Assembly (NCBI RefSeq): GCF_023566055.1
Contig: NZ_JALIQP010000001.1
Location: 1,076,059-1,140,058, forward strand
Length of the DNA stretch: 64,000 bases
DNA from: Halosolutus amylolyticus
Lineage (GTDB): Archaea > Halobacteriota > Halobacteria > Halobacteriales > Natrialbaceae
Reading direction: 5' to 3'
Shown here: positions 5,402-54,832 of the stretch, one piece after another
Layout: each line of letters begins with the position of its first letter
How positions within the stretch are numbered: position 1 is the first letter of the stretch
Program-made: the position numbers and the translations under genes
Notes under the pieces: generated by a model
What the model was told of the DNA's origin: nothing
What the model saw: only the letters and a program-made list of their open reading frames with translations
The model's database searches: none

Positions 5402-5494
5402 AGGTCCGGGTGCGAGAATCGAACCGAAGGAAGACGATCGCCTCGCTTCGCTCGGCGCTGCGACTTCCAGGGTTCGATCTCGATCGGACTTTTG
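5402..5494. repeat. tRNA-His 3'-end-derived palindrome
   Basis: Positions 5402-5426 repeat the 3' end of tRNA-His (5519-5543) exactly over 25 bp in the same orientation, at an offset of 117 bp. A degenerate inverted copy of the same tRNA end follows at about 5470-5494 (GGTTCGATCTCGATCGGAC). Between the arms lies a GC-rich, self-complementary stretch around CGCTTCGCTCGG. A second short inverted repeat (ACTTTTGAC region and GTCAAAA) fills the space before the tRNA. It sits in the trailer of the tRNA transcript. No coding sequence is seen in 5177-5521. Confidence 0.7.
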
Positions 5495-5521
5495 ACTCCT
5501 CCGTGAAGTCGTCGTCAAAAG

Positions 5522-5594
5522 GTCCGGGTGCGAGAATCGAACCCGCGTCTCAGCCTCCACAAGGCTGAAGGATAACCACTACCCCAACCCGGAC
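5522..5594 (-). tRNA. tRNA-His (GTG)
   Basis: Read on the minus strand it folds as a cloverleaf: acceptor strand GTCCGGGT with an encoded G-1, pairing with ACCCGGAC and discriminator C73 (archaeal His identity). The D arm is GGGT..ATCC, the anticodon stem-loop CAGCC-TTGTGGA-GGCTG with GTG at 5558-5560, and the T arm GCGGG-TTCGATT-CTCGC. No intron is present and CCA is not encoded. Confidence 0.97.
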
Positions 5595-16629: not shown

Positions 16630-16788
16630 CGACAGACACTCCTGCTGGAAATATAATCAATGGTGGCGTTGTGGGACGGCCGATCGATCCGCGTCGTTAC
16701 CGCAACGGGCGTCGATTCGATCCGTTCGGTTACGACGCGGTCTCCGTCGAATCCCGCCTCTCGAACGTATCACTCGCGGGTGCCAAAG

Positions 16789-16875
16789 TGCGAGGAAAGG
16801 GATTTGAACTACGCCCGAGAACCTGCTCGCTCTGCTCGCAGAACCTCGGTCTAGTTCAAATCCTTCGTTCGATCA
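16789..16875. repeat. tRNA-Leu 3'-end-derived palindrome
   Basis: Positions 16789-16809 repeat the tRNA-Leu 3' end (16906-16926) with one mismatch, at an offset of exactly 117 bp. A degenerate inverted copy follows at about 16850-16875 (TAGTTCAAATCCTTCGTTCG). The segment between the arms is self-complementary (CCGAGAACCTGC...GCAGAACCTCGG-like). This is the same design as beside tRNA-His. No gene is seen in 16630-16905. Confidence 0.7.
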
Positions 16876-16905
16876 CTGTCGCTCGCGGGTTGCTCGCGAC
16901 CATGA

Positions 16906-16989
16906 TGCGAGGGAAGGGATTTGAACCCTCGGACCTCTACAGGAGCGGGTCTTAAGCCCACCGCCGTTGGCCTGCTTGGCTACCCTCGC
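16906..16989 (-). tRNA. tRNA-Leu (TAA)
   Basis: This is a class II tRNA of 84 nt. On the minus strand it reads GCGAGGGTAGCCAAGCAGGC, with anticodon loop CTTAAGA giving TAA (16952-16954 on the plus strand is TTA), a variable arm, T arm GAGGGTTCAAATCCCTT and discriminator A73. There is no intron. Confidence 0.96.
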
Positions 16990-17058
16990 ACAGAAACGCA
17001 CCCGGATGTAGTGGCCCACCGGGAATGTGCGTTTCGATGTTCGGCCCGGCGCGCGACG

Positions 17059-53683: not shown

Positions 53684-54832
53684 ATGAGCGCATACGACGA
53701 CGCAGACCAGCACGTGAATAGCGAGCCCACGCAACTCGACGACGACCCGATCCGGGTCCTGGACGAGGACGGGAACGTCCTCCCGAACGCGGCGGTTCCG
53801 GATCTCTCGGACGAAGAGTTGCTGGCGATGTACGAAGATATCGCGCTCGCACGCCGGTTCGACCAGCGTGCGATCAGCCTCCAGCGGCAGGGCCGCATCG
53901 CGACCTACGCGCCGATGACGGGCCAGGAAGGGGCCCAGGTTGCGACGAGCTACGCCCTCGACGACCAGGACTGGCTGTTCCCGACCTACCGCGAGCACGC
54001 AGCCAAGTACGTCCACGGGATGAGCCTCGAGTCACTCCTGAAACCGCTTCGTGGCATCCGAGAGGGGTACGCGATCCCGGATGACGTCAACGTCATGCCG
54101 GAGTACATCCCAATTGCGACGCAGTTGCCCCAGGCGATGGGGATGGCCTGGGGGCAGCAACTCCAGGGTCAGACCGACAGCGCCGTCCTGTGTCACTTCG
54201 GGGACGGGGCGACCTCCGAAGGCGACTTCCACGAAGGGCTGAACTTCGCCGGCGTGTTCGACGTCCCCGCCGTGTTCGTCTGCAACAACAACCAGTGGGC
54301 CATCTCCGTGCCTCGAGACCGGCAAACTGCGAGCGAAACGATCGCGCAGAAAGCCGCCGCCTACGGTCTCGAGGGCGTTCGCGTCGACGGACTCGATCCG
54401 CTCGCCATGTACGCGGTTACGCGCGATGCACTCGCGAAGGCGAAAAACCCGACCGGTGACGAACGGCGGCCGACGCTCATCGAGGCGGTCCAGTACCGCT
54501 ACGGTGCCCACACGACTGCGGACGATCCGTCGGTCTACCGCGAGGAAGACGAGGCGGACGCGTGGCGACAGAAAGACCCCCTCGACCGCCTCCGGAACTA
54601 CCTGTCCGCGGAGGGAATCCTCGACGAGGCGGTCGACGCCGAGATCGACGATCGGGTCGATGCCCAGATCGACGATGCGCTGGCGACCGTCGAGGCCGTC
54701 GAGACCGATCCGGAGCGGATCTTCGAACACGTCTACGAGGAGATGCCCGAGCGGCTTCGCGAGCAGCGGGACGAACTGCTCGCGCTCCGCGACAAGTACG
54801 GCGACGACGCGTTCTCGGAGGTGCTAGAATGA
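53684..54832 (+). CDS. 2-oxoacid dehydrogenase E1, alpha subunit (TPP-dependent)
   Basis: This 382-residue protein starts MSAYDDADQHVNSEP. The TPP/Mg motif is GDGATSEGDFHEGLNFAGVF followed by NNNQWAIS. TGQEGAQVATSYALDDQDWL then PTYREHA and YRYGAHTTADDPSVYREEDE (phospho-loop region) are typical of PdhA/AcoA/BkdA1. With the beta subunit it decarboxylates a 2-oxoacid or acetoin-like substrate. No E2 or E3 gene is nearby, so those would have to be shared from elsewhere. Confidence 0.92.
   Translation: MSAYDDADQHVNSEPTQLDDDPIRVLDEDGNVLPNAAVPDLSDEELLAMYEDIALARRFDQRAISLQRQGRIATYAPMTGQEGAQVATSYALDDQDWLFPTYREHAAKYVHGMSLESLLKPLRGIREGYAIPDDVNVMPEYIPIATQLPQAMGMAWGQQLQGQTDSAVLCHFGDGATSEGDFHEGLNFAGVFDVPAVFVCNNNQWAISVPRDRQTASETIAQKAAAYGLEGVRVDGLDPLAMYAVTRDALAKAKNPTGDERRPTLIEAVQYRYGAHTTADDPSVYREEDEADAWRQKDPLDRLRNYLSAEGILDEAVDAEIDDRVDAQIDDALATVEAVETDPERIFEHVYEEMPERLREQRDELLALRDKYGDDAFSEVLE

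Follow-up and report, generated by a model that had tools for sequence, protein, structure and literature searches.

The haloarchaeal units described here resemble the rtT repeats (RF00391) that follow tyrT in Escherichia coli, where non-coding units likewise stand in tandem downstream of a tRNA and each repeats its 3' end. rtT occupies one locus, whereas the haloarchaeal units were present behind about half of all tRNAs and throughout the class; they also contain an inverted copy of the tail and two hairpins that can be exchanged, and show compensatory changes. The RtT RNA family gave no match to the haloarchaeal units in the Rfam scans. At SNJ2-, pNOB8- and SSV-type tRNA attachment sites, direct repeats of the tRNA 3' end likewise flank inserted DNA; unlike these archaeal integrase sites, the units enclosed about 117 bp without a gene inside, and their hairpins were common to different tRNAs. 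Excerpts of a review (PMC8371274) describe nothing of this kind.

Trailers of tRNA-Leu(taa) and tRNA-His(gtg)

The window, i.e. the whole stretch of 64,000 nucleotides from Halosolutus amylolyticus that was analysed, contained units behind tRNA-Leu(taa) and tRNA-His(gtg) (Table 1). Each unit is non-coding, repeatable, and composed in order of the tRNA tail T (tRNA positions 53-73), a hairpin H1, an inverted copy T', a hairpin H2 and T again. Behind tRNA-Leu(taa), the direct 3'-end copy, the inverted copy and the self-complementary loop reported in the first-pass annotation were all found, with 20 of 21 bases equal between the two direct tails (start-to-start distance 117) and perfect 12-nt inverted-repeat arms at 16800-16811 and 16852-16863. 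The sequence GGATTTGAACTA was confined to these two sites in the window (0.02 expected with one mismatch). Compared with shuffles, folding of this trailer gave z = -4.66 as RNA (0/200) and z = -3.16 as DNA (0/200). Its H2 core shared 96% identity with that of the tRNA-Val(gac) trailer of this genome. A generic enrichment of GAGCGNAGCGAG was rejected (26 sites against 38 in the reversed control).

For tRNA-His(gtg), an offset of 117 had also been claimed, and the actual value was 118. This unit contained a match (C1:1081471-1081540, window 5413-5482, E = 4.6e-7) to a covariance model built on H2, for which the match threshold was set at E <= 0.01. Elsewhere in the window (54224-54414), ARAGORN allowing long introns called a tRNA-Cys with a 102-nt intron, which looks false.

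Table 1. Features of the two unit-bearing tRNA trailers, in window positions.
Feature	Position	Strand	Basis
tRNA-Leu(taa), host tRNA	16904..16990	-	ARAGORN; Rfam RF00005
First T, tRNA-Leu 3' end (tRNA positions 53-73)	16906-16926	-	
H1 module: hairpin GGTCGCGAGCAACCCGCGAGCGAC with GARC..GYGA motif, and spacer	16866..16905	-	fold, segmentation
T', inverted copy of T-loop and first T-stem bases (positions 53-64)	16854..16865	-	inverted repeat, position profile
H2 core, 45 nt, CTAGACCGAGGTTCTGC..GCAGGTTCTCGGGCGTA	16810..16854	-	fold
Second T, direct copy of tRNA positions 53-73, 20/21 identical	16789..16809	-	
Decayed second H1, its start (CACCCGCGAGTG)	16766..16788	-	sequence; weak repeat
tRNA-His(gtg), second host tRNA	5521..5593	-	tRNA search
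tRNA-His unit, whole	5403..5520	-	direct tail copy at offset 118
tRNA-His unit, H1	~5491-5520	-	
tRNA-His unit, T'	~5472-5491	-	
tRNA-His unit, H2 core	~5426-5471	-	
tRNA-His unit, tail copy	5403-5425	-	

Occurrence of the units and their relation to the host tRNA

All trailers of the 4.59 Mb genome, which gave 46 tRNA matches, were examined; one more tRNA, tRNA-Pro(cgg), was found in addition. The layout was present at about 23 of the 47 tRNA loci, some of them tandem arrays: 21 tRNAs were followed by a second copy of their own 3' end at offsets of about 99-154, and two tRNA-Pro genes (one with its unit displaced by an insertion) add to these. Look-alikes were excluded from this count, such as the tandem tRNA-Asp genes (L017; G000:C1:944786-947858), which are identical, 262 bp apart and followed by unrelated trailers. 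The two tRNA-Pro genes that lack an adjacent unit (L051 and L030) were each followed immediately by a cysteine-rich (zinc-ribbon-like) reading frame, and these two frames were similar. At most loci, unit-bearing trailers matched their own tRNA end far better than swapped-in ends of other tRNAs (22 against at most 10.5 for tRNA-His; 21 against 9.5 for tRNA-Asn), and this own-end match is not due to chance.

The genome-wide offsets, whose randomness would have pointed to coincidence, were clustered. Nevertheless, the 117-nt geometry proposed as fixed proved to be the mode rather than the rule, with spacings of about 96-163 in most cases. Among 90 distinct tRNA-Leu(taa) loci from named haloarchaea and family members, 67 had one to three copies, with spacings peaking at 114-118 and ranging from about 97 to 138. 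Across 42 class-wide arrays, spacings were mostly 96-163; a small number of values, shortened or merged, fell between 57 and 222.

Of the 391 Halobacteria genomes, 385 had H2 model matches; a separate phylum sample yielded 79 genomes with matches, all of them Halobacteria, and none among the 312 others. Of 44 class-wide loci chosen among high-scoring model matches, 42 came immediately after a tRNA whose tail matched and one behind an intron-containing tRNA, while the last adjoined the 3' end of an apparent tyrosine recombinase. A free-standing transposon was rejected, as model matches keep to tRNAs. The common mechanism suggested from two tRNAs is upheld, the layout being present behind half of the tRNAs of this genome and in almost all haloarchaeal genomes.

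Profiles over 104 units indicated that the direct copy spans tRNA positions 53-73, and that the inverted copy is kept mainly at 54-62. In 81 Leu units, agreement between the copy and its host tRNA was about 88-99% across positions 53-72, and 94-98% at the unpaired positions 63-67. The copy also tracked lineage changes of the host tRNA at positions 64 and 65 (about 62/66 each), both unpaired, and at positions 57 and 69 (61/66). The units are thus tRNA-templated, as first proposed, since the copies follow the sequence of their own tRNA down to lineage-specific changes. T' matched mainly in its H2-paired part (54-62 at 86-99%; elsewhere 5-58%). At its acceptor end it scored 4.05/6 against its own tRNA and 3.32/6 against other tRNAs, with 14 of 66 Leu units perfect, so that the H1 stem extends into the tRNA end.

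Competing readings of the units

The favoured reading, with a probability of about 45%, is that the units are structured DNA cassettes which undergo recombination at tRNA tails and need folded single strands for it. It is supported most strongly by a contrast between the two copies: the direct copy keeps its unpaired middle identical to the tRNA, whereas the middle of T' drifts. We infer that DNA recombination at the tail of the tRNA maintains the cassettes, by way of an enzyme, a circle and folding in vivo. Direct tails would recombine among themselves as well as with tails that arrive from elsewhere, via a tyrosine recombinase or homologous exchange, which would add, remove and homogenise units and keep T the same as the tRNA even in the middle (63-67), which has no pairing partner. 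T'-H2-T and T-H1-T' would each fold in single-stranded DNA, where the hairpin would allow T' to be corrected to match T, and the T-loop sequence common to all tRNAs would be the place at which cores are swapped. The arrangement would operate in the manner of integron cassettes, with the tRNA tail as recombination site, though it is not an integron. Against the cassette reading, homogenised arrays need nothing beyond homologous recombination. Its widest form, in which cassettes universal to haloarchaea recombine as folded single-stranded DNA, exchange modules and rewrite their flanks to the host tRNA, is put forward more tentatively.

Module exchange was visible at several scales. Among pairs from one locus whose H1 identity was 85% or more, H2 cores were mostly no more alike than unrelated ones, and two Natrinema hispanicum strains differed by exactly the H2 core block. 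Same-genus pairs combined similar H1 with dissimilar cores (0.95 and 0.67) or the reverse (0.64 and 0.96; 0.60 and 0.94), and a comparison of three congeneric genomes showed H1 and H2 being exchanged independently of each other. From these comparisons, tRNAs and genomes look to share one pool that supplies the H1 and H2 cores. H2 cores had no excess similarity within one genome (p = 0.59), which leaves movement inside a single cell unproven; homogenisation within one genome was rejected for the same lack of excess, the raw value of 27/31 reflecting best-of-many bias. Of the mobile palindrome envisaged in the first-pass annotation, the exchange of hairpin cores among tRNAs and genomes is retained, but the copies themselves stay at tRNAs, save a few displaced by integrated elements.

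The hairpins shared conserved and strand-specific features. Of 16 pairs predicted from 33 aligned H2 modules, 11 had compensatory changes on both sides, and over 176 modules the pair types of the inner stem swapped freely (e.g. CG 66, GC 63). One base on the 3' strand of the H2 stem was consistently bulged (G in 144/174) and an A.G mismatch was common. The GARC..GYGA motif occurred 152 times on the tRNA-sense strand and 3 times on the antisense strand (208 segments); GARC-loop-GYGA gives tandem G.A pairs, and its R and Y covary. The commonest H2 apex was a GNA triloop (40 of 68 loops), and GNA triloops are a stable type of DNA mini-hairpin. Inner-stem mismatches comprised G.T (20) and A.C (18) about equally, which does not discriminate DNA from RNA in this GC-rich clade; acceptor stems of the host tRNAs were likewise poor in G.T, so wobble counts do not discriminate either. 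When 12 units were folded as circles, each gave a closed rod with T:T' paired and H1 and H2 as caps (z from -3.6 to -8).

The sense-strand-only motifs, strong RNA folding, covariation and strict position behind tRNAs would also fit an RNA function, in which the unit is transcribed as the tRNA trailer and T' serves as an anti-tail, pairing either with the 3' end of its own tRNA, which would then misfold, or within H2 with the copy T, which would release the tRNA. H1 and H2 would then have a part in 3'-end processing, in termination or in the binding of proteins, and the sheared G.A pairs and the G-bulge would be RNA motifs. Hairpins that partly halt transcription in Haloferax (PMC7237163) count for this alternative, as does the fact that, at T-box sites where copy and tRNA disagree, T' sides with the tRNA by 40 to 5. 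It is nonetheless rather unlikely, as it fails to account for the identity of the unpaired positions 63-67 of the copy to the host tRNA, for the half of tRNAs without a unit, and for core turnover within a genus. In addition, a T4 tract, present directly behind the tRNA at the start of many units, may end transcription ahead of the unit, and Rfam scans returned only tRNAs at gathering score, hairpin look-alikes such as mir-239 being weak and below cut-off.

Exact tandem arrays occurred with a period of 111 in G383 and in an alternating ABA order at L177; behind tRNA-Gly(tcc) of G383, the L176 array (G383:C1:1877300-1879600) comprised at least 7 near-identical 111-bp units. The exact repeats in these arrays point to recent expansion, and L176 is a good place for following unit gain and loss. 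Such arrays, together with decayed units and the half of tRNAs that are empty, are also expected from passive duplication, i.e. functionless tandem repeats arising from the tRNA 3' end by unequal crossing-over or template switching, likened to the repeats behind E. coli tyrT. Quasi-palindrome correction would here maintain the complementarity of T' and the stems, and T' indeed matches only in its paired part, as hairpin-templated correction predicts. This explanation is unlikely, since the H1 and H2 motifs, the mismatches and the bulged G are common across tRNAs and the whole class, and correction would erase mismatches; the restriction of the units to one class (385/391 inside, 0/312 outside) is also hard to reconcile with a neutral by-product.

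Integrating elements were found at several tails; insertions with integrase genes that part tRNA and unit there count towards the cassette reading. At L063 (G000:C1:900800-905000), tRNA-Pro(tgg) was split from its old unit by an insertion of about 2.5 kb with an N-terminal integrase remnant and two pilin-like genes, and the tail CCGGGCGATCCCATAC was present in duplicate. At L178 (G045:C1:3344300-3348500), a 3-kb integrative element encoding a tyrosine recombinase (Phage_integrase domain) and a DUF7342 protein lay between two nearly identical units at tRNA-Gly(tcc), and it seems to carry a unit itself in its attachment region. With a further insertion at L355, this shows that unit tails serve as integration sites; the enzyme moving the units is not thereby identified. 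A host-kept decoy or insulator, whose tail copies absorb integrating elements or keep them off the tRNA, is very improbable: the first-pass annotation had raised it, and these insertions with integrase genes (the displaced tRNA-Pro unit, the G045 element, L355) agree with it, yet they bring no direct support, the tRNA itself being the target in the tRNA-Pro and G045 cases and the benefit being small because integrating elements usually restore the tRNA.

An SNJ2-like integrase, searched with one query protein in 20 genomes, was present in 3 of the 6 genomes without model matches and absent from several unit-rich genomes, including G383 with its perfect array; for want of co-occurrence with the units, it was rejected as sole driver. 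BLAST against haloviruses and plasmids gave only Sulfolobus virus tRNA-Gly matches, plus matches on haloarchaeal megaplasmids. A pattern scan of viral contigs was discarded, the pattern being too unspecific.

Comparison with known systems

Searches of the open-access literature found no earlier description of tRNA-tail units, subscription papers being outside this scope. The family may be an undescribed, class-wide recombining element, its novelty being provisional. It would then be a basic feature of haloarchaeal genomes unrecorded in Rfam and in the open-access literature searched, and a natural case of elements copying their target sequence. It would help to understand the attraction of tRNA tails for integrating elements, and would offer a clear test bed for folded-DNA recombination outside integrons. 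For annotation, caution is advised, as the tail copies resemble prophage attachment sites.

Like attC sites, the units have an imperfect inverted repeat in which the boxes are paired, the middle is paired less well and one base is bulged, as well as a variable terminal hairpin, strand-specific features and an array of short units. Unlike attC, their box is the tRNA tail, they lack the GTTRRRY/RYYYAAC boxes and they contain no ORFs; GTTR is absent from T because T starts with GTTC in tRNAs (C56 fixed). No integron integrase (TIGR02249) exceeded the curated cut-off in 97 Halobacteria genomes, and an integron or attC cassette array was rejected on this ground and for the missing core boxes.

PATEs and IS605-type haloarchaeal elements (PMC3119063) are similarly short and non-coding, with palindromes near their ends. 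A PATE or IS605-derived element, with genome-wide copies and fixed ends, was rejected, as covariance-model matches in the own genome were nearly all behind tRNAs. In contrast to those elements, the haloarchaeal units are not scattered, and are tied to tRNA 3' ends with tRNA-specific flanks.
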